This document shows positions 7,683-43,069 of a DNA stretch of 64,000 nucleotides, piece by piece (the first letter of the stretch is position 1; each line of letters opens with the position of its first letter). Origin of the DNA: Cladocopium goreaui (taxonomy: Eukaryota; Sar; Dinophyceae; Suessiales; Symbiodiniaceae); contig CAMXCT020006748.1 of the NCBI GenBank assembly GCA_947184155.2, positions 248,001-312,000 on the forward strand, in the 5' to 3' direction. The notes beneath the pieces were generated by a model, which had not been told where the DNA came from, made no database searches, and saw only the letters and a list, made by a program, of their open reading frames with translations. Made by a program: the position numbers and the translations under genes.

Positions 7683-8190
7683 CTAAGATATGGAAAAAAA
7701 CTCTGTTTCTAGATCATGATTTTTGCAGGAACATGCATGGATGTCCATATTGGTGTTGTTATTTGACCGGAGGCTGCTCCCAATTTGCTATATTTGAGCG
7801 CGCCTCTGAAGCGAAAACTCAATTCTGCAATTATCGAGGAATGGGTTTGGAAGACCATATTTCTGGGCACGATGCCAGTTGCTTTAGATACTCAGATACT
7901 AGGGAACCAATGGGGGTGCTGGCAAAAACAGAACCAACCAGGAACAGCTTTGCACACAGGTTGCCATGAAGAGTCATAAACGTTTGGGGAATGCCTGTTT
8001 GTCAGGGAAGAATTTACGAGATGTGGGTGAGATGATTAGAGGTTCTTTGTCGCGGACAGTTTGCCTGTGGATTCTTGATCCTACCTTCTGCGGCTTGAAT
8101 CAACATGAGGTCAATCCATCATTTACAAGGAGAAGAGCTTCGGAGGCCGACTTTGGATGTTCAGGATTGGTCCTGAATGTCAATGATATA

Positions 8191-8227
8191 TATATATATA
8201 CAACTATATATGTATAATTATATAAAT
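8191..8227. repeat. AT microsatellite used as the copia target
   Basis: TATATA-rich tract directly left of the copia element. A closely similar AT tract with the shared words CAATTATATAAAT and ATATG continues on the other side of the element (15313-15395), so the element is inserted inside an AT microsatellite. Confidence 0.75.
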
Positions 8228-8367
8228 GTGAAATCATTCCTGCTGTCAGCATTTGCATGTGGTGCACGTCTATCAGTCGCAGGGACTTCTAGAGCTCGAG
8301 GTGCGAGTGGAAAACAGTTAGAAAGCCCGATGTGTGTGCGGCCCCCGGTGGGGCAATCGCTTCCTCA
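8227..8367 (+). repeat. 5' LTR (141 bp, TG...CA)
   Basis: Begins TGTGAAATCATTCCTGCTGT and ends TTCCTCA. It is identical over its full length to 15172-15312. At 141 bp it is short for copia. As the 5' copy it should contain the promoter and transcription start. I see no TATA box inside it, though AT-rich DNA flanks it. Confidence 0.95.
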
Positions 8368-8368
8368 T

Positions 8369-8380
8369 TGGTAGCGGAGC
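8369..8380 (+). promoter_or_regulatory. Primer-binding site for initiator tRNA-Met
   Basis: TGGTAGCGGAGC starts two bases after the 5' LTR. It matches, with one mismatch, the TGGTAGCAGAG complement of the 3' end of eukaryotic initiator tRNA-Met, the usual copia primer. This fixes the right edge of the 5' LTR. Confidence 0.8.
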
Positions 8381-8401
8381 CCACCGGGGGCCCGCAAAGG
8401 A

Positions 8402-11400
8402 ATGTCCGAGGTGGACAGATCGCTGCGCCGTTTCAATGGCGATGATGAAGATCCTGGCAAAGCATTGAAGAGATGGAAGTTGTGGGCGAAGGCAAAGCTC
8501 ATGACGGTGAAAGACATAAAACCCGAACAAAGGGGTCCTTGGCTGTTCACCCTCTTGGAGGGAAAGGCTTGGGATGCTTGCGAGCATCTCTCACTGGATG
8601 AGTTGGCGAAGGACACCGGAGAAGATCAACTGTGGAAACTCTTAGAGTCGCGTTTCCCCGAGAAGGAGCCATTTGATCAGATGGGTGAAGCCTTGGGCGC
8701 AGTTTTTGCGCTAGCTGCAAAGGAGAACGAAGATCTGAAAACATGGACTGGAAGGGTCAGAGACACCTTCGACCAATGTCAGAGGAAAGGGCAGGTGACC
8801 TTTCCTTCCCAGGCGGAGGGTTGGATTCTTCTACACTGTGCTGGACTGACGGAAGAACAGCGAGCCATCGTCAAAGCAAAGTCTCAAGGGAAGCTGGAAT
8901 TCAGTGCGGTTTCCCAGGCACTCAGGTCGTGTTTTCCGGAGTTTAAGGCTCCATCTGGCAGGAAGAAGGCTCTTGGAGTCTTTCAAGTTGATGAGGTTCC
9001 CGACAGGCATCTGCAGAGTCACCGCGGAGACGAAGATGATCTTCGCTTCGATGATGTCGAAGCGTTTCTCTCTGAACACCAATTCACCTCAACGTCAGAG
9101 GAGCAGCCATTCTCTGAGTCTGAGACCGCGGAGGCTTTGGCCGTGAGCTGGGGTGAGCGACGAAAGGAGATTGCCAAGCTCCGACAGTCGCGCCAATTTG
9201 GTGTGGTCAACAAGGAGAAAAGAAGCTTCCGAGTGGAAGTAGAAGAACTCAAAAAGAGAACTAAATGCAGACGATGTGGCAAGGCGGGTCACTGGCAGAG
9301 GGAGTGCAAGGTAGTGCTTCCTGACAAAGGAACGTCTTCTGGAAGCGCTGGTGCTACAACTGGCGCGGGGTACGTTCAACATGAAGATGATCTACCCGCT
9401 CCCACCTTTGTGGGGGCAACAGAGATACTCTCTGGCGAAAGCTCAGAAGACCCACACTCAGTGCTAGCATCTGGACTTGTGTCTTCTCCCGGCTTTGGTG
9501 TGGTGGATAGCGGATGTGGGAAAACGTTGATCGGTATGGACACGTTGTCCAAACTGCAACAACTGGTTGAGAGCAAAGGTTTTGGCCCTCTCCGTTTCCG
9601 AGATGAAGCAAATGTGTTTCGGTTTGGGAACGGCATGACTGAGAGATCCACAAGAGTTGTTACGCTGCCTGTGGGGATTGCCAAGACCTACGGCACTATT
9701 GATGCTGCTGTCATTGAGGGTCAAGCCCCATTGTTGCTCGGGCGTCCGACCTTGGTGAAAATGGGAGTCAATCTGGACTTCAAGAACAATCAAATGGCAT
9801 TCATGGATCACTGCACCACCATGAAGGTGAATAATGCCGGACAGCTCCTCGTAGACATCCTCGACTATCCGCATCTGCCTGGGCTAAAGCAGTCACGTGC
9901 CAAGGCCAGCCAGAAAAGTCAGGGGGATAACCAGGTGAATAATAATGGGGATAGTGGGGTAGGACATCATAAGAGTAAGACGAAAATCACACTGAAAAAG
10001 AAAGAGTGTAGATGCCTGCTCGCTCAGATGTCCAGTGTCCGACCCAAAACCATGTCCAAAGACACCTGTGCAGTAGCCGAGCTGTTCTCTCCTCCAAGGT
10101 TTTCGGTTGAAGCTGAGAAACGTGGTTATAGTGGGGTAGCCTATGACATTAAGCAGGGTTGGGATTTAGATGATCCAAAAGTTCAAGATCGGGTTGATAA
10201 GGAGTTAGATGCCCTCAATCCCAAGCTTCTTGTCGCCTGTCCACCGTGCACTCACAGGGGTGGATGGGAGCACCTGAACCGCTGCTTTCGATCACCGCTA
10301 GAGACTGCCCGCCTCATTCGGAGGTCCAAGTCACAGGTGAAATTCTGTGTGAGGCAGATCCGCAAGCAAGAAGCCCGAGGGGGTGAATTCATGTTTGAAC
10401 ATCCATGGGGAGCCGAGACATGGGATGATGATGAAATGATTCCTCTCAAACGAAAGTATGGTGTTCGAAGGGTTGATATGTGTGCCTACGGGCTGAAGTG
10501 TCCTGACTCCAACATGCCTATCCGGAAAGCTACGGGTCTCATGCTGTCACGTCGTCCTGAAGACAGAGCCATGTGCCTCTTGACATGCCCCGGGTGTCCC
10601 AAACATAGACCAGTTGAGGGTAAGCTGTCTGATGGTAGGAATGTAAGCGAGTTTGTAGCCCAGTACACTGACGCGTTTGTGAAGCATATCATGGACCTGT
10701 GTTTGGGGGATTACCCATCTCATGATGCCAATTGGGTACATCTCGAAGCATGTGAAGACTTTGAATGTCTTGCCAGCGAAGAAGCCGATCAGCCAGAGCC
10801 CAATGAGCCCGCCAGTGACAGAGTCCAGCCAGCCGGATCCGATGATGCCAAGTTGCATGCAGCTGTTCGCAAACTGCACTCTAATTTGGGTCATCCTAGC
10901 AATAGGGATTTGGTCCGAATTCTGCAGAACAGCAAAGCTGCTCCTCAAGCCATCAAGATAGCCAAAGACTTCCAGTGTTCTGTTTGTGCTAACCAACAGG
11001 GTCCTGCGACGTCACTTCCCGCCAAGACCTCAAGGGTATGGGAGTTCAACGAGCGAATTGGGATGGATATTAAGTATCTTCCAGGGTGGAAACCAAACCA
11101 GAATATACCATGTGTCAGTCTGGTAGACTATGCCTCATCCCTTCATGTCATGACACCCATATTCCAGAAAGAGAATGCTGAATTGCTGAAAGGAGTTCTG
11201 CGTGACTCATGGATCAGCTGGGCGGGCCCTCCGAAAGTTCTGGAGATGGATCCATCTCGACCCAATCTCAGTGATGCACTTGGCGAGTTTTGTCAAAGTT
11301 TAGGCATTGATGTGGTGTTCACAGCGGCAGAGAGTCACTGGCAACTTGGAAAAGTCGAGCGCCATGGCCACTGGTTTGAAAAGATTTTGCTGCGAGTGCA

Positions 11401-14341
11401 TGATGAACATCCACCCGAATGTGTAGAACATTTTGTTGACAACGTTATCCAAACTCAAGTTGCGAAGAACTCACTGATTTCCGAAGCCGGAGCAAGTCCT
11501 TACCAGATTGTTCTAGGTAGAAATCCCAGAGTTCCTCAGGACTTGTTACAGGAAGACGTTCATCTGCCGTCAGTAGATGCCTCGCAATTTGAACCTGCGT
11601 TCCAGCGTGCCAATGCAGTCAGACACACCGCCAGACTGGCCGTTCTTCAATGTCAAGACGACCGTGCCTTGAAAGCGGCCCTAAGAGCCAGACCTAGACC
11701 AAAGAAAGAGTTCTCCTCAGGTGATTGGGTGTTTTACTGGAGATGTCAAAAATGGGTTCAAGGTCAGCTCCAACGAGGTGGTCGTTGGCATGGAGCGGGA
11801 GTACTGCTTGGCAAGATTGGAATCAACTGGATCGTTGCTCACCGCAGGAGCATTTTTAGATGTTCTCCTGAACAACTGCGACACGCAACTCCTGATGAAG
11901 TGTCAGTTGCAACCTTTGATGAAAATGAACTGATAGGCATCCGGATGTTGCTTGAAAAGGGTCAATTTCCCAAAGGTCAGTTTCTCGATCTGGTCAATCA
12001 GGAGCCTCCACCAGCCCCTGAAGCTGTTGTGAATCACATGCATGAGCCACTCACCGGTGCCCGAACTGCAGCTGAGTTATTCCAGCAGCAGGAGTCCCAG
12101 CCGAGCGTAGAAAAACCGCCCGAGCCTGGGTCGAATCCCGAAGCTCCTGCATGTCAAATGCCTATGGATTCGAGTTCTGTCATCCACACTGAAGAATATG
12201 GTCCTATTAGGCGAGTCCGACATTCACACAAGAGCCCACCAGTGTTTTTGCAAAGGCCTGAAGGTATGGCAGATGAGGATTTGATGGAAATTCTCCAAGA
12301 GACCCTACCAGAAATGATTGATGCTCAAATGTCCATGCAATCCTCACAGTTAGCACAGCCCAGTAGTCCAAGACAGCCCAGTGTAAAGAGAGATGCCAGC
12401 CATGAACCGGATGACCGAACTCATGCACGCCCTCGGACCGAAGAGCCCGAGCATGACAGCCTGTCCTGCGAAACAGCCATGTGTTCCGAGGTACTGTCCA
12501 TCGAAACTCTGACAGCCGCCTTTCTGCAAAAGAAACTGCAGAAAGAAATCGCTCCAGTGAACAATCCTCATGAGTTGCAACAAAAAGTGGACGCCTCCAA
12601 GAGTCTGGAATGGGAAACTCTGCTAGGGAAGAATGCCATTCGTATATGGACAGGTGCCAAAGCCAGAGCCATTCGACAAAATCACAGTGATAGATTCATT
12701 GGAAGTAGGTTTGTGATTGTCAAGAAGAGCGACGATGAAGGCGAGCGTGTGAAGAGCCGATGGTGTTTACAAGGACACCTTGATCCGGATTTTCATGAGA
12801 AGATCATTTCTGGTGCGTGTCACTCACCAACACTGCACCCTATGTCACGATCGTTGGTCCTCCAAATCTTAGCCAGCAAACGATGGACACTGCAGCTAGG
12901 AGATATCAAGGGTGCATTCTTAGAGGCCGGACCCCTGGAAAAGAAATTCACTCCTCTGTATGCTCACCAACCACGGGGCGGGGTTCCCGGTTTGGATCCT
13001 GATGATGTCATTGAGGTTGTTGGAAATGTTTATGGATCCAACGATGCACCTATGAACTGGTTTTCGACTTTCAATGATGAAGTCAAAAGTAATCGCTGGC
13101 AGCAGAGCCAGTTTGATCCATGTTTGTACTATCTCCGCGATGCTGATGGCAATTTGTGTGGTGTTCTTGGAGCCCATGTTGACGACACAATCACAGGTGG
13201 TCATGGAGAGTGCTACGAACGTGCCATTGCAGCGTTGAAGGCTCGGTTTCCGTATCGGAAGTGGAGAGTGGGTAGCGGCGATTTTTGTGGTGTTCAGTAC
13301 CGTCAAGACCCAGTGACGTATGCCATCACCTTTGGTCAGAAGGAATATGCACAACACTTGAGGCCAATCAATCTGTCTAAAGATCGCCTGAGGAACAAAG
13401 GGTCGCTAGCCACTGACCGAGAGGTTGCCACTCTTCGAGCCATTAATGGAGCATGTAATTGGCTGAGTAGTCAGAGCCGTCCTGACCTAGCAACACAGAC
13501 GTCCTTCAGCCAGCAGTGCTTTCCTAATCCAAAAGTCAGCGATTTGGTGTTTGCAAACCAGCTCATTCACCGGGCGAAACAATACAGTGATGTTGAGGTG
13601 ACTGTGAAACCAATTCCTTGGAACCAACTTGGGGTCTGTTTCCATTCCGATGCTTCTTTTGGGAATGCCAAGGCACTAAGAACACAGGCAGGATACATTG
13701 CAGCATTTGTAGATGGAAACCTTCCAAAGAATCAGCCAAGCTGTTGGTCACCATTTGCATGGAAGTCCTTTAAACTTCCCAGGGTAGTTGCCTCCACACT
13801 TGCCGGAGAAGCTCAGTGTTTCTCACTGGCCAGCGCTGCAGCTGAATGGATGATGCTGTTGCTTAGTGAAGCAAAGCATGGTCAATTTGACCTGCGGACA
13901 CAAGAGCAGATCAAATCTCTAGGTTTGCCGAAGCCCACTAGGCCCTGCCGTGATGAGCTTGAGATGGGAACTGTCACTGGAGTTACTGATTGCAAGAGTC
14001 TGTATGACCACCTCACGTCACCTTCATCAGTGTCAAAATGTGATGATAAACGTGTAGCAATAGACCTGGCAATCCTAAGACAGTGCATGAGCAGCTGTAA
14101 GCTTCAGGTGAGATGGTGCCCGTCACAACTTATGTTGGCAGATGCGTTGACCAAGGATCAATGGGATCCAAGCGAGCTCCTCCGAGCCGCTCTCCAGTTG
14201 GGAGAGTATCAGCTGAATCACGAAGCGAGCGTGTTGGAAAAGAAGAAAGTTCAGCGTACGCAGAAGCCGTCCAAAACCTATGAGCCAGTCCCACCAGGGG
14301 ATCAGAAAAAATCAACCATAACCAGAAAAATAGGATACTGA
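8402..14341 (+). CDS. Copia Gag-Pol polyprotein with C5-methyltransferase-like insert
   Basis: One 1979-residue ORF. ATG 8402 is the first start after the primer site, 21 bases downstream. Gag: residues 1-200, then a CCHC zinc knuckle (CRRCGKAGHWQREC, 289-302). Aspartic protease: active site Asp369-Ser-Gly with LLGRP near 445-449. Insert, about 555-760: ELFSPPR (560-566), CPPCT (613-617) and FEHP (665-668), in the order of cytosine-5 methyltransferase motifs I, IV and VI. Integrase: zinc site His826/His831/Cys859/Cys862, catalytic Asp889, Asp950 and Glu986 (35 residues between the last two). Reverse transcriptase: Asp1501 and the His-Val-Asp-Asp box at 1592-1595. RNase H: Asp1750, Glu1803, Asp1863 and Asp1914. 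All catalytic positions I can check are intact. The product would be cut by its own protease and assemble into particles that reverse-transcribe and integrate the element. The Gag:Pol ratio control is not evident, since there is no internal frameshift or stop. Confidence 0.97.
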   Translation: MSEVDRSLRRFNGDDEDPGKALKRWKLWAKAKLMTVKDIKPEQRGPWLFTLLEGKAWDACEHLSLDELAKDTGEDQLWKLLESRFPEKEPFDQMGEALGAVFALAAKENEDLKTWTGRVRDTFDQCQRKGQVTFPSQAEGWILLHCAGLTEEQRAIVKAKSQGKLEFSAVSQALRSCFPEFKAPSGRKKALGVFQVDEVPDRHLQSHRGDEDDLRFDDVEAFLSEHQFTSTSEEQPFSESETAEALAVSWGERRKEIAKLRQSRQFGVVNKEKRSFRVEVEELKKRTKCRRCGKAGHWQRECKVVLPDKGTSSGSAGATTGAGYVQHEDDLPAPTFVGATEILSGESSEDPHSVLASGLVSSPGFGVVDSGCGKTLIGMDTLSKLQQLVESKGFGPLRFRDEANVFRFGNGMTERSTRVVTLPVGIAKTYGTIDAAVIEGQAPLLLGRPTLVKMGVNLDFKNNQMAFMDHCTTMKVNNAGQLLVDILDYPHLPGLKQSRAKASQKSQGDNQVNNNGDSGVGHHKSKTKITLKKKECRCLLAQMSSVRPKTMSKDTCAVAELFSPPRFSVEAEKRGYSGVAYDIKQGWDLDDPKVQDRVDKELDALNPKLLVACPPCTHRGGWEHLNRCFRSPLETARLIRRSKSQVKFCVRQIRKQEARGGEFMFEHPWGAETWDDDEMIPLKRKYGVRRVDMCAYGLKCPDSNMPIRKATGLMLSRRPEDRAMCLLTCPGCPKHRPVEGKLSDGRNVSEFVAQYTDAFVKHIMDLCLGDYPSHDANWVHLEACEDFECLASEEADQPEPNEPASDRVQPAGSDDAKLHAAVRKLHSNLGHPSNRDLVRILQNSKAAPQAIKIAKDFQCSVCANQQGPATSLPAKTSRVWEFNERIGMDIKYLPGWKPNQNIPCVSLVDYASSLHVMTPIFQKENAELLKGVLRDSWISWAGPPKVLEMDPSRPNLSDALGEFCQSLGIDVVFTAAESHWQLGKVERHGHWFEKILLRVHDEHPPECVEHFVDNVIQTQVAKNSLISEAGASPYQIVLGRNPRVPQDLLQEDVHLPSVDASQFEPAFQRANAVRHTARLAVLQCQDDRALKAALRARPRPKKEFSSGDWVFYWRCQKWVQGQLQRGGRWHGAGVLLGKIGINWIVAHRRSIFRCSPEQLRHATPDEVSVATFDENELIGIRMLLEKGQFPKGQFLDLVNQEPPPAPEAVVNHMHEPLTGARTAAELFQQQESQPSVEKPPEPGSNPEAPACQMPMDSSSVIHTEEYGPIRRVRHSHKSPPVFLQRPEGMADEDLMEILQETLPEMIDAQMSMQSSQLAQPSSPRQPSVKRDASHEPDDRTHARPRTEEPEHDSLSCETAMCSEVLSIETLTAAFLQKKLQKEIAPVNNPHELQQKVDASKSLEWETLLGKNAIRIWTGAKARAIRQNHSDRFIGSRFVIVKKSDDEGERVKSRWCLQGHLDPDFHEKIISGACHSPTLHPMSRSLVLQILASKRWTLQLGDIKGAFLEAGPLEKKFTPLYAHQPRGGVPGLDPDDVIEVVGNVYGSNDAPMNWFSTFNDEVKSNRWQQSQFDPCLYYLRDADGNLCGVLGAHVDDTITGGHGECYERAIAALKARFPYRKWRVGSGDFCGVQYRQDPVTYAITFGQKEYAQHLRPINLSKDRLRNKGSLATDREVATLRAINGACNWLSSQSRPDLATQTSFSQQCFPNPKVSDLVFANQLIHRAKQYSDVEVTVKPIPWNQLGVCFHSDASFGNAKALRTQAGYIAAFVDGNLPKNQPSCWSPFAWKSFKLPRVVASTLAGEAQCFSLASAAAEWMMLLLSEAKHGQFDLRTQEQIKSLGLPKPTRPCRDELEMGTVTGVTDCKSLYDHLTSPSSVSKCDDKRVAIDLAILRQCMSSCKLQVRWCPSQLMLADALTKDQWDPSELLRAALQLGEYQLNHEASVLEKKKVQRTQKPSKTYEPVPPGDQKKSTITRKIGY

Positions 14342-14371
14342 AATAAATAAAAAGGGGTAGATTGTGATGGG

Positions 14372-14525
14372 GTAAGTTCACATTGTAAATCCAAGGGGTA
14401 CACAAGTACAAATTTTTGCAGCTTGTGGACATCGGTGATTCGATGCAGCAACGGTGCTCAACCGAGCAGAAGCTTGAACTGGTAGCTCGATCGTTTTTCA
14501 TCCTGTGCGACACCTTTTTCCTTAG
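14372..14525 (+). promoter_or_regulatory. Possible intron or trans-splice acceptor before accessory ORFs
   Basis: A perfect GTAAGT donor at 14372 lies just after the polyprotein stop. A pyrimidine run CACCTTTTTCCTTAG|G ends at 14525, 35 bases before the first accessory ATG (another TTTTTGCAG ends at 14422). Either an intron is removed here or the acceptor is used to make a separate spliced (possibly spliced-leader) mRNA for the 3' ORFs. This is inference from signals only. Confidence 0.4.
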
Positions 14526-14560
14526 GTTTCATCAGTTCCGTGTACAGTTCGAGCGGTGCC

Positions 14561-14722
14561 ATGTCCACGCCATCCCATGTGTCCATCCAAGATCTCCGAC
14601 AAGCCCTGATTTCCCTTCGTGAAGTAGGTCAGCTGGAAGTGTTCTCCAAGAGACTTTTCAGAACGATGTCTCGAAACCCGGAGCCATGTCTGATAGTAGC
14701 AAACGCAGAGCCGAGGCCATAG
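14561..14722 (+). CDS. Copia accessory ORF a (53 aa)
   Basis: ATG 14561 to TAG 14720-14722. The peptide reads like structured protein (VSIQDLRQALISLREVGQLE then VFSKRLFRTMSRNPEP), an amphipathic helix followed by a basic tail. It overlaps the next ORF by 37 bases in a different frame, so the two could be bicistronic or joined by a -1 frameshift. It lies between the polyprotein and the 3' LTR, a place where most copia elements have no gene. Function unknown. Confidence 0.5.
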   Translation: MSTPSHVSIQDLRQALISLREVGQLEVFSKRLFRTMSRNPEPCLIVANAEPRP

Positions 14723-15120
14723 AGTCTGACAATGGGTTCGATTTGATTTCCAGCGTCTCGTGCAAGCAGGCTCCAGTGCTTCCCTGTTCTTCGGCAGCCA
14801 TGTCCATGGGAACAGAGAACGTGAACAATGGCTATCCAGAGGGTATTGTCTCTTTGGAACAGTGGGGACACACAGTCTGCGAGTTGCCGAAGGTGGCTAA
14901 TCGAGATATCAACTACATGAGCATGATCGAGGAGTCAAAGACCAAGAAGGAGATGGGTGAGTACCTCTCGTGGGTGTACAATGCAAAGATTCAGGGCAAG
15001 AAGGCTGACGATTTGCGAGCTTATCTGAAGGCCATGCACTGGAATCCTAAGACCCACCGGGTTGAAACTGGAGAGACCATGATGTATCCGGGATCGACGA
15101 TGGCCCGTCGCTTGAAGTAA
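14686..15120 (+). CDS. Copia accessory ORF b (144 aa)
   Basis: ATG 14686 to TAA 15118-15120. Residues 1-45 are Ser-rich and low in order. The rest looks folded: EGIVSLEQWGHTVCELPKV, an acidic/basic helix, MGEYLSWVYNAKIQGKKADD, then LRAYLKAMHW and a basic end. The layout of a short Trp-containing start, a helix and a 'YLxWVY' segment vaguely recalls small nucleic-acid-associated domains, but I do not recognise a family and see no signal peptide or membrane segment, so it is not envelope-like. It ends about 50 bases before the 3' LTR. Likely an element-encoded accessory protein. Confidence 0.7.
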   Translation: MSDSSKRRAEAIESDNGFDLISSVSCKQAPVLPCSSAAMSMGTENVNNGYPEGIVSLEQWGHTVCELPKVANRDINYMSMIEESKTKKEMGEYLSWVYNAKIQGKKADDLRAYLKAMHWNPKTHRVETGETMMYPGSTMARRLK

Positions 15121-15123
15121 TTC

Positions 15124-15140
15124 AAAGAGGAGAAGAAGGA
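15124..15140 (+). promoter_or_regulatory. Candidate polypurine tract
   Basis: Seventeen consecutive purines (AAAGAGGAGAAGAAGGA) 31 bases upstream of the 3' LTR. Plus-strand primers normally abut the LTR, and here the adjoining bases are TTTTATAGGAG, so either the displaced tract is used or a weaker AGGAG does the job. Confidence 0.45.
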
Positions 15141-15171
15141 ATTAGAATTTTATTTGATGGTTTTATAGGAG

Positions 15172-15312
15172 TGTGAAATCATTCCTGCTGTCAGCATTTG
15201 CATGTGGTGCACGTCTATCAGTCGCAGGGACTTCTAGAGCTCGAGGTGCGAGTGGAAAACAGTTAGAAAGCCCGATGTGTGTGCGGCCCCCGGTGGGGCA
15301 ATCGCTTCCTCA
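15172..15312 (+). repeat. 3' LTR (141 bp)
   Basis: Identical to 8227-8367. The right edge is fixed by comparison with the 5' copy, whose next bases are the primer site. As the 3' copy it should carry the polyadenylation signal; no AATAAA is visible inside. Confidence 0.95.
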
Positions 15313-15395
15313 TAAATATATGTATATATATATATATATACAATTATATAAATATATGCATATGTATATAATTATATATGTATATATTATTATAT
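15313..15395. repeat. AT microsatellite right of copia
   Basis: Long TATA/ATATG tract continuing the target microsatellite. It starts with TAAAT, the candidate target duplication. Confidence 0.8.
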
Positions 15396-15684
15396 ATGTA
15401 TGTCAAACATATAATTATCTAGGCTTGTTTTTTTGGTGAAAGGAGAAGTTTGCTCGATGATCCCTGGAGTTGGTGCTTTCAAACCTGCGAAACCTGCTCC
15501 CAGCTATGTATGCACATGTAACTATATGTAATACAGATTTATAATAATATCATTATATAACTATATACTTGTATACTTACATAATTATACATGTATTTAA
15601 ATTTAGGTAGATAAGATAGACATCTTTGTGTGTGAGACTTCTTTGAACACACAGAATCTCATAAATACCACACACGTTGGGTCT

Positions 15685-33927: not shown

Positions 33928-34960
33928 AGCATTGTTCCCCACCTGCCAGGTGAGGGTTGTTAGATTTTATGTCAGTTGCCTGCTCCTCTCCTCCTCTCCT
34001 CTCCTCCTCCTCCGGCTCAACCCCGACCCTCGACGCACAGTGTTCTCTGTCGGACCTCAACCACGACCATCCACGCCCAGTGTTCCCTGCCGGACCTCAA
34101 CCACGACCATCCCCGCCCAGTGTTCCCTGCCGGACCTCAACCACGACCATCCACGCCCAGTGTTCCCTGCCGGACCTCAACCGCGAGTATCCCCGCCAAG
34201 TGTTCCCTGCCGGACCTCAACGGGAAGAATGTCAGAAAAGATGTCAGATAGAATGTCAGAAGATTTGCCAGATAGAATGCCAGAAAGAATGTCAGAAAGA
34301 ATGTCAGAAGATATGCCAGACAGAATGTCAGAAGATATGCCAGAAAGAATGTCAGAAGATATGCCAGATAGAATGTCAGAAGATATGCCAGATAAAATGC
34401 CATGAGATATGCCAGATAGAATGCCAGAAGATATGCCAGATAGAATGCCAGAAGATATACCAGATAGAATGCCAGAAGATATGCCAGATAGAATGCCAGA
34501 TAGAATGCCAGAAGATTTGCTAGATAGAATGCCAGAAAATATGCCAGAAGATATGCCAGACAGATATGCCAGATAGAATGCCAGATAGAATGCCAGAAGA
34601 TTTGCCAGAAGATATGCCAGAATATATGCCAATAGCATGCCAGATGGAATGTCAGAAGATATGTCAGAATATTTGCCAAAAGATATGCCAGAATATATGC
34701 CAATAGCATGCCAGATGGAATGTCAGAAGATATGTCAGAATATTTGCCAAAAGATATGCCAGATAGAATGCCAGAAGATATGTCAGATAGAATGCCAGAA
34801 GATGTGCCAGATAGAATGCCAGAAGATTTGCCAGATAGAATGCCAGAAGATATGCCAGAAGATATGTCAGAACATATGCCAGAAGATATGCCAGATAGAA
34901 TGCCAAATAGAATGTCAGATAGAATGTCAGATAGAATGCCAGAAGATTTGCCAGTAAGAA
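33928..34960 (+). repeat. Composite minisatellite element, expanded copy
   Basis: Parts in order: TTCCCCACCTGCCAGGTGAG and TAGATTTTATGTCAG; a CTC/CCT pyrimidine run (33980-34014); five tandem 40-bp units whose starts TGTTCYCTGY fall at 34041, 34081, 34121, 34161 and 34201; then about 730 bp of a 12-bp unit alternating as GATATGCCAGAT and AGAATGCCAGAA (24-bp higher order) to about 34955. Same architecture as 3117-3390. Because 12 and 24 are multiples of 3, several frames stay open on both strands (Met-Pro-Glu-Asp / Ser-Gly-Ile-Leu repeats). These are best read as repeat artefacts. Confidence 0.9.
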
Positions 34961-38030: not shown

Positions 38031-39391
38031 GTGTCTATAGGGGAAGCTGCAAAACCTCGTGTCTTTTGCGACGTAGATGTCGCAGTGTCTATAGGGGAAG
38101 CTGCAAAACCTCGTGTTTTTTGCTACGTAGATGTCGCCGTGTCTATAGGGGAAGCTGCAAAATCTCGTGTCTTTTGCTACGTAGATGTCGCAGTGTCTTT
38201 AGGGGAAGCTGCAAAATCTCGTGTCTTTTGCTACGTAGATGTCGCAGTGTCTATAGGGGAAGTTGCAATATCTCGTGTCTTTTGCTACGTAGATGTCGCA
38301 GTGTCTATAAGGGAAGCTGCAAAATCTCGTGTCTTTTGCTACGTAGATGTCGCAGTGTCTATAGGGGAAGCTGCAAAACCTCGTGTCTTTTGCTGCGTCG
38401 ATGTCGCAGTGTCTATAGGGGAAGCTGCAAAACCTTGTGTTTTTTGCGACGTAGATGTTGCAGTGTCTATAGGGGAAGCTGCAAAACTTCGTGTCTTTTG
38501 CTACGTAGATGTCGCCGTGTCTATAGGGGAAGCTGCAAAATCTCGTGCCTTTTGCTACGTGGATGTCGCCGTGTCTATAGGGGAAGCCGCAAAATCTCGT
38601 GTCTTCTGCTACGTAGATGTCGCAGTGTCTATAGGGGAAGCTGCAAAACCTCGCGTTTTTTTTCTACGTAGATGTCGCAGTGTCTATAGGGGAAGCTGCA
38701 AAAACCTCGTGTTTTTTGTTACGTAGATGTCGCAGTGTCTATACGGGAAGCTGCAAAACCTCGTGTCTTTTGCTACGTAGATGTCGCAGTGTCTATAGGG
38801 GAAGCTGCAAAACCTCGTGTTTTTTGCTATGTCGATGTCGCCATGTCTATAGGGGAAGCTGCAAAATCTCGTGTCTTTTGCTACGTAGATGTCGCAGTGT
38901 CTATAGGGGAAGTTGCAAAACCTCGTGTTTTTTGCTACGTAGATGTCGCAGTGTCTATACGGGAAGCTGCAAAATCTCGTGTCTTTTGCTACGTAGATGT
39001 CGCAGTGTCTATATGGGAAGCTGCAAAACCTCGTGTTTTTTGGTACGTAGATGTCGCCATGTCTATAGGGGAAGCTGCAAAATCTCGTGTCTTTTGCTGC
39101 GTGGATGTCGCCGTGTCTATAAGGGAAGCTGCAAAACCTCGTGTTTTTGGCGACGTAGGTGTCGCAGTGTCTATAGGGGAAGCTGCAAAACCTCGTGTCT
39201 TTTGCTACGTAGATGACGCAGTGTCTATAGGGGAAGTTGCAAAATCTCGTGTTTTTTGCTAGGTGGATGTCGCCGTGTCTATAAGGGAAGCTGCAAAATC
39301 TCGTGTCTTTTGCTACGTAGATCTCGCAGTGTCTATAGGGGAAGCTGCAAAACCTCGTGTTTTTTGCTACGTAGATGTCCGAGTGTCTATA
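38031..39391 (+). repeat. 54-bp satellite, about 25 copies
   Basis: Each unit runs GTGTCTATAGGGGAAGCTGC, AAAACCTCGTGT, CTTTTGCTACGTAGATGTCG, CA. It has the CTACGTAG palindrome and a few recurrent variants (CCT/TCT, GCA/GCC). 54 is 18 codons, so two + frames (VSIGEAAKPRVFCYVDVA and SVYRGSCKTSCLLLRRCR) and one antisense frame (YRHCDIYVAKNTRFCSFP) stay open across many units. The longest + ORF is 37902-38726. I see no start context, splice signal or unequal codon constraint showing that any is translated. Treat as satellite DNA. Confidence 0.93.
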
Positions 39392-42377
39392 ACAAAGTGG
39401 TACTGGGAAGTGCTTCGTGCAAGCTTTTGTGCATGTGTAGTACACAGTAGTACTGGGAAGTGCTTTGTGCAAGCTTTGTAGTACACAGTAGTACTGGGAA
39501 CGGCTTTGTGCAAGCTTTGTAGTACACAGTAGTTCTGGGAAGTAGTTTGTGCGAGCTTTGTAGTACACAGTAGTACTGCGAACGACTTTGTGCAAGCTTT
39601 GTAGTACACAGTAGTACTGGGAACGTTTTGGGCACGTGCTTCTGCAAGCTTTGTAGTACACAGTAGTACTGGGAAGTAGTTTGTGCGAGCTTTGTAGTAC
39701 ACATTAGTACTGGAACGTGTTTGTGCGAGCTTTGTAGTACACAGTAGTACTGGGAAGTGCTTTGTGCAAGTTTTTTAGTACACAGTAGTACTGGGAAGTA
39801 GTTTGTGCGAGCTTTGTAGTACACAGTAGTACTGCGAACGACTTTGTGCAAGCTTTGTAGTACACAGTAGTACTGGGAACGTTTTTGTGCGAGCTTTGTA
39901 GTACACAGTATTACTTGGAAGTAGTTTGTGCGAGCTTTGTAGTACACAGTAGTACTGGTAACGACTTTGTGCAAGCTTTGTAGTACAAAGTAGTACTGGG
40001 AACGTGTTTGTGCGAGTTTTGTAGTACAAAGTAGTACTGGGAAGTAGTTGTTGCAAGCTTTGTAGTACACAGTAGTACTGGGAGTGCTTTGTGCGCTTTG
40101 TAGTACTTTAGTGGGAAGTGTGTGGGCGAGCTTTGTAGTACACAGTGTACTGCAACGACTTTGTGCAGCTTTGGAGTACCAGTAGTACTGGAACGTTTGG
40201 GCACTTGCTTCTGCAAGCTTTTTAGTACACAGTGAATACTGGGAAGTAGTTTGTGCGACTTTGTAGTACACATAGATACTGGAACGTGTTTGTGCGAGCT
40301 TGTAGTACACGTATTACTGGAAGTGCTTTGTAGCTTTGTAGTACACAGTAGTACTGGGAAGTAGTTTGTGCGAGCTTTGTAGTACACAGTAGTACTGCGA
40401 ACGACTTTGTGCAAGCTTTGTAGTACACAGTAGTACTGGGAACGTTTTTGTGCGAGCTTTGTAGTACACAGTATTACTTGGAAGTAGTTTGTGCGAGCTT
40501 TGTAGTACACAGTAGTACTGGGAACGTTTTGGGCACGTGCTTCTGCAAGCTTTGTAGTACAAAGTAGTACTGGGAAGTAGTTGTTGCAAGCTTTGTAGTA
40601 CACAGTAGTACTGGGAACGACTTTGCAAGCCTTGTAGTACAAAGTAGTACTGGGAAGTGCTTTGTGCAAGTTTTGTAGTACTCAGTAGTACTGGGAAGTG
40701 GTTTGTGCAAGCTTTGTAGTACAAAGTGGTACCTGGAAGTGCTTCGTGCAAGCTTTGTAGTACAAAGTGGTACTGGGAAGTAGTTTGTGCGAGCTTTGTA
40801 GTACACAGTAGTGCTGGAACGTGTTTGTGCGAGCTTTGTAGTACACAGTAGTAATGGAACGTGTTTGTGCAAGTTTTGAAGTACACAGTAGTACTGGAAC
40901 GTGTTTGTGCGAGCTTTGGAGTACACAGTAGTACTGGGAAGTGCTTTGTGCAAGTTTTGCAGTACACAGTAGTACTGGGAAGTAGTTTGTGCGAGCTTTG
41001 TAGTACACAGTAGTGCTGGAACGACTTTGTGCAAGCTTTGTAGTACAAAGTAGTACTGGGAAGTGCTTTGTGCAAGCTTTGTAGAAGACAGTAGTCACTG
41101 GNNNNNNNNNNNNNNNNNNNNNNNNNNNNNNNNNNNNNNNNNNNNNNNNNNNNNNNNNNNNNNNNNNNNNNNNNNNNNNNNNNNNNNNNNNNNNNNNNNN
41201 NCTGGAACGACTTTGTGCAAGCTTTGTAGTACACAGTAGTACTGGGAAGTAGTTTGTGCAAGCTTTGTAGTACACAGTAGTACTGGGAAGTGCTTTGTGC
41301 AAGCTTTGTAGTACACAGTAGTACTGGGAACGACTTTGTGCAAGCTTTGTAGTACAAAGTAGTACTGCGAACGACTTTGTGCAAGCTTTGTAGTACAAAG
41401 TAGTACTGCGAACGACTTTGTGCAATCTTTGTAGTACACAGTAGTACTGGGAACGACTTTGCAAGCCTTGTAGTACACAGTAGTACTGGGAAGTGCTTTG
41501 TGCAAGTTTTGTAGTACAAAGTAGTACTGGGAAGTGCTTCGTGCAAGCTTTGTAGTACAAAGTGGTACTGGGAAGTAGTTTGTGCAAGCTGGGAAGTAGT
41601 TTGTTCGAGCTTTGTAGTACACAGTAGTACTGGGAAGTGTGCAAGCTTTGTAGTGCAAAGTAGTACTGGGAACTTTGTGCGAGCTTTTAGTGCACATTGT
41701 ACTGGAAGTGTTTGTGCGAGCTTTGTAGTACACAGTAGTACTGGAAGTGTTTGTGCAAGTTTTGTAGTACACAGTAGTACTGGGAAGTAGTTTGTGCGAG
41801 CTTTGTAGTGCACATTGTACTGGAACGACTTTGTGCAAGCTTTGTAGTACACAGTAGTACTGGGAAGTGCTTTGTGCAAGCTTTGTAGTACACAGTAGTA
41901 CTGGGAACGACTTTGTGCAAGCTTTGTAGTACACATTAGTACTGGAACGACTTTGTGCAAGCTTTGTAGTACACAGTAGTACTGGGAAGTAGCTTTGTGC
42001 AAGCTTTGTAGTAGTACACAGTAGTACTGGGAAGTGTTTTGTGCAAGCTTTGTAGTACACAGTAGTACTTTGTGCAAGCACAGTAGTACTGGGAACGGCT
42101 TTGCAAGCCTTGTAGTACAAAATAGTACTGGGAAGTGCTTTGTGCAAGCTTTGTAGTACACAGTAGTACTGGGAACGGTTTCGTGCAAGCTTTGTAGTAC
42201 AAAGTGGTACTGGGAAGTAGTTTGTGCAAGCTGTGTAGTACACAGTAGTACTGGGAAGTGCTTTGTGCAAGCTGTGTAGTACACAGTAGTACTGGGAAGT
42301 GCTTTGTGCAAGCTGTGTAGTACAAAGTACTGGGAAGTAGTCTGTGCAAGCTTTGCAGTACAAAGTAGTACTGGGAA
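39392..42377 (+). repeat. 41-bp satellite, about 70 copies
   Basis: Each unit runs AGTACTGGGAAGTGCTTTGT, GCAAGCTTTGTAGTACACAG, T. Variants change AAGT to ACGT/ACGA, CAAG to CGAG, and CACAG to CAAAG. Since 41 is not a multiple of 3, a frame cycles through all phases every three units, yet the antisense strand has no stop in any phase. That gives overlapping antisense ORFs of 300-665 codons. Small deletions in 40080-40330 and 41640-41960 break register. The array is interrupted by the gap at 41102-41201. Confidence 0.93.
41102..41201. other. Assembly gap (100 N)
   Basis: Exactly 100 N inside the 41-bp satellite, the conventional length for a gap of unknown size. The true array is therefore probably longer than shown. 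Confidence 0.98.
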
Positions 42378-42387
42378 GTGCTTTGTA

Positions 42388-43069
42388 TAGTGTGGAGTGG
42401 GGAGTGTAGAGCGTGTAGAGTGTGGAATGTGTAGTGTAGATTGTAAAAAGTAAGAGTGTAAAGTGTAGAGTGTGGAGTGTATAGTGTAGTGTAGAGTGTG
42501 GAGTGCTAAGTGTGGAGTGTGGAGTGTAAAGTGTGGAGTGTAAAGTATGGCGTGTGGAGTGTAAAGTGTGGAGTATGGAGTGAGGAGTGTGGTGTGTGTA
42601 GAGTGTAGAATGTGGTGGAGTGTGGCGTGTGGAGTGTGGAGTATGGAGTGTAGTGTGTGGAGTGAGGATTGAGGAGTGTGGAGTGTAAAGTGTTGAGTGT
42701 GGAGTGAGGAGTGTAAAGTGTAAAGTGTGGAGTGTAAACTGTAGAGTGTGGAGTGTGGAGTGGAAAGTGGCGAGTGTGGAGTGTAAAGTGTGGCGTGTGG
42801 AATGTAAAGTGTGGAGTGTGAAGTGAGGAGTGTGGTGGGTGTAGAGTGTTGAGTGTGGTGGAGTGTGGAGTGTAGAGCGTAGAGCGTGGAGTGAGGAGTG
42901 TAAAGTGTAAAGTGTAAAGTGTGGAGCCTGGAGTATAAAGTGTAGAGTGTGGAGCGGAAAGTGTCGAGTGTGAAGTGTAGAGTGTCAAGTTAAGTGTAGA
43001 GTGTAAAGTGTGGAGTGTGGAGTGTAAAGTGTAGTGTGCGGAGTGTGGAGTGTAAAGTGTGGAGTGTGA
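42388..43069 (+). repeat. 7-bp AGTGTRR satellite
   Basis: About 680 bp of a degenerate heptamer, AGTGTGG / AGTGTAA / AGTGTAG, starting directly after the 41-bp array. Antisense translation gives a Thr/Leu/His/Ser/Pro-rich ORF (43255-42506) that is a repeat artefact. It is not the TTTAGGG telomere repeat. Confidence 0.88.

Follow-up and report, generated by a model that had tools for sequence, protein, structure and literature searches.

A miniature C5-cytosine-methyltransferase-like domain between protease and integrase in a copia clade of Cladocopium goreaui

Introduction

Canonical C5-cytosine methyltransferases such as DNMT3A/3B, M.HhaI and M.HaeIII combine a full-size target-recognition domain with GxG, Glu-Asn-Val (ENV) and QxRxR motifs. 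All of these features are absent from the domain described here, which lies in a copia retrotransposon of the dinoflagellate Cladocopium goreaui (GenBank assembly GCA_947184155.2, contig CAMXCT020006748.1, positions 248,001 to 312,000 of the forward strand; this 64,000-nucleotide stretch is called the window, and its coordinates are used throughout). The pol region of copia elements has, to our knowledge, no domain separating protease and integrase. In other superfamilies, C5-type domains have been reported from Symbiodinium long interspersed nuclear elements (LINE; SymbioLINE-Dnmt) and DIRS elements (SymbioDIRS-Dnmt3) and from charophyte gypsy elements (KnitGypsy-Dnmt3; de Mendoza et al. 2018, PMC5890265). 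In the parts of that paper drawn on here, the DNMT scan used PF00145, copia is the most abundant superfamily in Symbiodinium and is said to be without any DNMT domain, and the DIRS enzyme methylates CG de novo, the authors proposing that it marks complementary DNA (cDNA). As far as these parts go, the window element likewise carries a C5-type domain within a retrotransposon but differs from the LINE, DIRS and gypsy cases, found through PF00145, in being a copia element whose domain has no PF00145 match. It is thus not a LINE/DIRS DNMT retrotransposon of the Symbiodinium kind, and the kinship with those enzymes proposed in a first-pass annotation found no backing, no tie having emerged and no tree having been built with them.

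The closest described proteins by sequence are small phage C5-methylase-like proteins of the families phrog_2882 and phrog_757 (Lactococcus phage P087 gp15, Streptococcus phage SW23, Mycoplasma phage MAV1 MarMP). With 212-270 residues as annotated they leave little room for a target-recognition domain, and they share with the window domain the motifs PPC[ET], E-[NH]-P-x5-W and K-x-[PT]-T in the same order. They differ in being stand-alone genes, in reading ENP rather than EHP and in having C-E-[ST]-[FW]-S after the Pro; identity to the domain is 12-20% in profile alignments.

The portions consulted of a 2024 dinoflagellate genomics review, a 2023 survey of microeukaryote DNMTs, a paper on retrotransposon accessory domains and a Breviolum 5-hydroxymethyluracil paper make no mention of a copia domain of this kind. 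Among the titles and abstract openings covered, which leave most subscription papers outside, none describes a dinoflagellate copia methyltransferase domain; a 2018 paper on heat-activated Ty1-copia in S. microadriaticum might do so.

Results

A reduced C5-methyltransferase-like domain

The domain annotated between protease and integrase is present, with its bounds corrected to about residues 553-770 of the polyprotein. The three motifs on which it had been proposed are exact and lie between the Asp-Ser-Gly protease and the integrase finger. Conservation is given below for 48 window-type rows from the same genome (46 distinct places, L003/L010 and L005/L011 being the same; some rows are near-identical, and selection was partly for long frames) and for a second type of the domain (26 rows, 24 of them distinct; 10 of the 26 are stand-alone open reading frames, ORFs).

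10058..10711, + strand: C5-methyltransferase-like domain, about residues 553-770 (fold model, structural matches, conservation)
10079..10099, + strand: motif I position, ELFSPPR 560-566, PPR in place of the GxG of C5 enzymes
10145..10147, + strand: motif II position, D582, in 48/48 window-type and 24/24 second-type rows
10238..10252, + strand: motif IV, CPPCT 613-617, putative nucleophile C616 (10247-10249)
10397..10423, + strand: motif VI, EHPWGAETW 666-674, E-[HN]-P-x5-W (conservation and phage alignment)
10526..10534, + strand: motif VIII position, K709-A-T711, K709 in 48/48 and T711 in 47/48 rows
10586..10606, + strand: C729...H735, in the reduced target-recognition region; C694, C729 and H735 each in 48/48 rows

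Motif IV presents a Pro-Cys pair with its Cys at the catalytic position; the Cys is found in 48/48 window-type and 24/24 second-type rows, and the preceding Pro in 33/48 and 24/24. The remaining C5 motifs depart from the canonical pattern. Motif I reads LFSPPRF instead of FxGxG. Motif VI retains its Glu in 48/48 rows within EHP rather than ENV, the replacement that had been pointed out (H667 in 48/48, P668 in 44/48), and K-x-T stands in place of QxRxR. The target-recognition region had been described as reduced and indeed spans 32 residues from the last core strand to the next helix of the model. C729 and H735, together with C694, may form a metal knuckle, a possible reading suggested by the residues themselves.

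Predicted fold and link to small phage methylases

The AF2 model of the domain (pLDDT 88.4, pTM 0.85) shows a Rossmann methyltransferase fold of the C5 type, and all 50 structural re-alignments listed for it are to C5-methyltransferases, the outcome that the structural check on the first annotation called for.

At the sequence level the link runs through the small phage proteins. A Pfam scan of the polyprotein gave no match within residues 535-800, searches of Pfam, NCBIfam and PDB sequences with the domain returned nothing convincing, and neither PDB chains nor five canonical C5 enzymes gave a significant direct sequence or profile match. The phrog_757 profile ('DNA methyltransferase') weakly matches the window domain (hmmscan E 0.0098), 5/29 alignment members and 2/4 second-type or stand-alone forms (ORFs L070, 0.0028, and L071, 0.0046); six diverged window-type copies matched no methyltransferase family in PHROGs. 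No family of another known function matched better; the sole family with a better score was phrog_12600, to which no function is assigned (12/29 members, best 8.4e-5).

Profile comparisons by hhalign strengthen this link. The domain profile A1 aligns with the profile A2, built from seven small methylase-like proteins of phages (3/7 rows cut at the locus end), at 3.9e-5, placing PPCT on PPCE and EHPWGAETW on ENPKTSYCW of the phage P087 methylase. With a 76-row profile the match to A2 is at 2.1e-6, compared with 0.2 for the reversed version of that profile. The second-type profile A6 (8 rows, one stand-alone) matches A1 at 9.3e-51, the phage family at 5.7e-7 over nearly the whole domain, and, with motifs IV and VI in register, canonical C5 enzymes at 0.0072. 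Adding second-type rows brings K-x-T at 709-711 into alignment with KKPT of phage P087. A2 itself matches the five canonical C5 enzymes at 2.8e-7. Against single-sequence targets, three query profiles gave 5e-6 to 1.5e-3 for small phage proteins, 0.0095-0.31 for canonical C5 enzymes, 0.013-0.16 for Dam, 0.0023-0.012 for RlmE, and 0.044 or worse for five other proteins. By sequence comparison the tie to the small phage family is thus clear, and that to canonical C5 enzymes is stepwise and by predicted fold. Scans of viral contigs gave 23 pattern matches with A1 and one with A4, none confirmed as a relative, and tblastn of phages with the second-type query P0147 and the window domain gave no match.

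Conservation and selection

Residues 540-790 retrieved 60 polyproteins (43-76% identical), and the piece alone retrieved 25 shorter proteins; one EukProt relative is labelled symbB.v1.2, presumably Breviolum minutum. In the resulting alignment of 86 rows (the window domain and 85 database relatives; columns counted only where >30 rows are present), 55/265 query columns are conserved at >=90%, among them E560, F562, R566, D582, P614, C616, E666, H667, P668 and W674. C616 is present in 27/28 database rows, with Arg in the remaining one. Within the genome, R566 and C616, E666, H667, W674, C694, K709, C729, H735, G740 and Y755 are found in 48/48 rows, and the position of P615 holds P in 33, T in 9 and E in 6.

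The domain evolves under strong constraint. Ratios of nonsynonymous to synonymous substitution (NG86 dN/dS) are 0.06, 0.06, 0.04, 0.02, 0.08, 0.03, 0.04 and 0.06 in the eight pairs that are informative (dS 0.16-0.56, forming about five independent groups; one further pair, with dS 0.02, was omitted). In the same pairs the integrase gives 0.01-0.05, the reverse transcriptase 0.01-0.03 (three pairs covered), and the linkers 0.02-0.23 before and 0.08-0.20 after the domain; among L008, L009 and L012 the values for the first linker are no higher than those for the domain, and in the L009/L012 pair the second linker has the same value as the domain. Pairwise distances of domain and reverse transcriptase correlate at 0.93 (21 long copies, 210 pairs; 0/2000 permutations as high), and the domain has therefore largely travelled with the element rather than been swapped in. 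A chance match of motifs was rejected, since conservation, selection and fold agree.

Prevalence and a second type of the domain

The search of the genome with the window domain covered 1.166 Gb in 6,202 contigs. It gave 2,801 candidates, of which 150 were scored; 142 of these 150 have no internal stop. Such domain counts are lower bounds. A search with the window reverse transcriptase gave 4,034 candidates, of which 150 were scored; judged by coordinates, a domain match lies 1.5-4.5 kb upstream of 130 of them; of the other 20, four from long frames were inspected and the domain was found in all four, once as its C-terminal half alone. The domain seen by the first-pass annotation in one element is real, and it is the rule rather than a peculiarity of that copy: it is a usual part of the sampled copia clade, close to universal. 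Long window-type copies usually measure 1,900-2,150 aa; frames of 3,595 and 3,015 aa surround the matches G000:C3405 and G000:C2491.

With P0147, 141 of 2,925 candidates were scored, and 137 of them lack an internal stop. These places differ from those of the window domain (by eye, none shared); some lie in long frames, the longest about 3,450 aa, and others are stand-alone ORFs with lengths of 252-335 aa. The translation of L072, the sole long second-type element retrieved, reads as a polyprotein of copia-like type in which the domain again lies between protease and integrase; the other second-type places were retrieved as domain pieces alone. P615, C616, S620, E666, P668, W674, C694, K709, T711, C729 and H735 are present in 24/24 second-type rows and H667 in 23/24, and motif IV reads P-C-x-x-[FYW]-S, typically in the form PPCTxFS that canonical C5 enzymes also show.

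Over residues 615-622, PPCTxFS is typical of the second type and P[PTE]C[TKR]xxGGW of the window type, the Cys being kept; these residues give the impression of a catalytic loop reshaped between the types. The stand-alone ORFs L062-L071 carry PPCT[LMF][YW]S and FEHP or LEHP, with one same protein on three contigs (L064, L065, L066), and are possibly element-derived host genes or a separate mobile unit.

Proposed function and alternatives

The domain is probably a miniature C5-cytosine-methyltransferase-fold domain that acts as an enzyme and has long been fixed in this copia clade; we infer its catalysis, substrate, timing and benefit. This reading is preferred because the nucleophilic Cys and the Glu of motif VI are fixed and selection on the domain is near that on integrase. 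Three results weigh against it. PF00145, proposed by the first annotation as a check on the domain, matches 0/29 alignment members at E up to 10 and 0/4 second-type or stand-alone forms; A1 reaches only 0.093 against canonical C5 enzymes, off-register and not significant; and the structure model of the P0147 domain is ambiguous and less clear-cut. By membership rules, the domain is C5-like and not a member of PF00145.

The domain would be translated within the Gag-Pol polyprotein and then freed by the element protease, or kept fused to integrase in the particle, where element RNA, primer tRNA and cDNA would be available as substrates. S-adenosylmethionine (SAM) would be bound, Cys616 would attack C6 of cytosine and Glu666 would protonate N3, leading to methylation of C5 in the nucleic acid of the element itself, most likely cDNA and possibly genomic RNA or primer tRNA. 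Sequence specificity would be low on account of the reduced target-recognition domain, and newly marked cDNA would resemble the CG-methylated host genome. As a substrate, cDNA is favoured by analogy with the published DIRS enzyme, which, as far as the parts of that paper used here report, acts de novo on CG and is proposed by its authors to mark cDNA (PMC5890265). The observed-to-expected CpG ratio (0.64 in the element, 0.58-0.69 in the flanks) is uninformative on self-methylation.

Alternatively, the C5-methyltransferase fold may be retained solely for its structure, as a non-catalytic module with affinity for nucleic acid or SAM that might, for instance, hold the cDNA end or primer for integrase. 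The domain has lost the glycines of the SAM loop, ENV, QxRxR and the greater part of the target-recognition domain; in the window type, moreover, the Pro before the Cys varies and FS of motif IV has become GGW, and the Cys is missing from a single one of 28 database rows. However, a dead module would be expected to drop its nucleophile in more lineages, and Cys616 and Glu666 are invariant in 48/48 and 24/24 rows, including copies as little as 36-37% identical to the window copy. The catalytically dead option raised in the first-pass annotation is weakened by this invariance and by the low dN/dS, and is best regarded as unlikely, if still a contender.

The active enzyme might instead methylate RNA, in a DNMT2-like role on genomic RNA or primer tRNA in the particle. 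The reduced target-recognition region and co-packaging with RNA are compatible with such a role, and an RNA substrate is raised for the LINE enzyme in the sections consulted of PMC5890265; yet no sequence feature points specifically to RNA, and the closest phage relatives are, by annotation alone, mostly DNA methylases among the 40 records listed, which leaves this option distinctly improbable. Mere convergence of another class I methyltransferase or Rossmann protein with C5 enzymes would accommodate the missing PF00145 match, the RlmE scores comparable with canonical C5 scores in single-sequence comparisons and the ambiguous second model, but is very improbable given that all 50 structural matches listed for the better model are C5-methyltransferases and that motifs IV and VI are in register with the small phage methylases.

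Architecture of the element and other features of the window

The element had been called an intact copia element, and its open frame, identical long terminal repeats (LTRs) and RVT_2 domain agree with this.

8227..8367, + strand: 5' LTR, 141 nt, TG...CA, 0 mismatches against the 3' copy
8369..8381, + strand: primer-binding-site-like TGGTAGCGGAGCC, right behind the 5' LTR, read from the sequence
8402..14341, + strand: copia polyprotein ORF, single uninterrupted frame, 1,979 aa, 5.9 kb
14342..15171, + strand: 3' untranslated part; its positions 15124-15141 are purine-rich, as read from the sequence
15172..15312, + strand: 3' LTR, identical to the 5' copy, TG...CA
8223-8226 and 15313-15316: TAAA, weak candidate for a 4-bp target-site duplication, the site being AT-rich

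Identity of the LTRs runs over 142 nt when the next base is counted, and we take TGGTAGCGGAGCC to resemble the initiator-tRNA sites of copia elements. AT-rich, microsatellite-like DNA surrounds the element (8186-8226 and 15313-15400).

The polyprotein has the order GAG-CCHC, protease, methyltransferase-like domain, integrase, reverse transcriptase and RNase H, in which protease, integrase finger and RNase H were positioned by reading the translation (DSG protease motif; His/Cys finger HSNLGHP...CSVC). Pfam places zf-CCHC at residues 288-303 and the copia-type RVT_2 at residues 1428-1651, both above cut-off; rve and gag_pre-integrs match under it. With its LTRs, GAG-CCHC, protease, integrase before reverse transcriptase (rve under cut-off) and RVT_2, the element is of the Ty1/copia type, from which it differs by the extra domain between protease and integrase.

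Elsewhere in the window, at 34016-34959 and 38031-43068, tandem arrays with units of 54 nt (x 25), 41 nt (x 71), 7 nt (x 96), 12 nt (x 61) and 40 nt (x 5) overlap long minus-strand ORFs, which are probably repeat artefacts, and a GC-skew spike (40-44 kb).

Implications

What is apparently new is the presence of a C5-methyltransferase-like domain in another retrotransposon superfamily, its minimal size and its apparent origin from another branch. Much more tentatively, the copia clade, whose elements would rank among the most abundant in these genomes, might be defined by an unrecognised, phage-related enzyme family in Pol that modifies C5 of cytosine or another pyrimidine, has almost no target-recognition domain and marks the cDNA of its own element. 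In that case such genomes could hold hundreds or more methyltransferase genes that have stayed hidden, and their unusual genome-wide methylation might partly stem from these. If the domain is active, the largest element class of these genomes would bring its own methyltransferase, which would bear on the cause of the methylation of most CG sites there, on the distinction between cDNA and foreign DNA and on the minimum size of a C5-methyltransferase.
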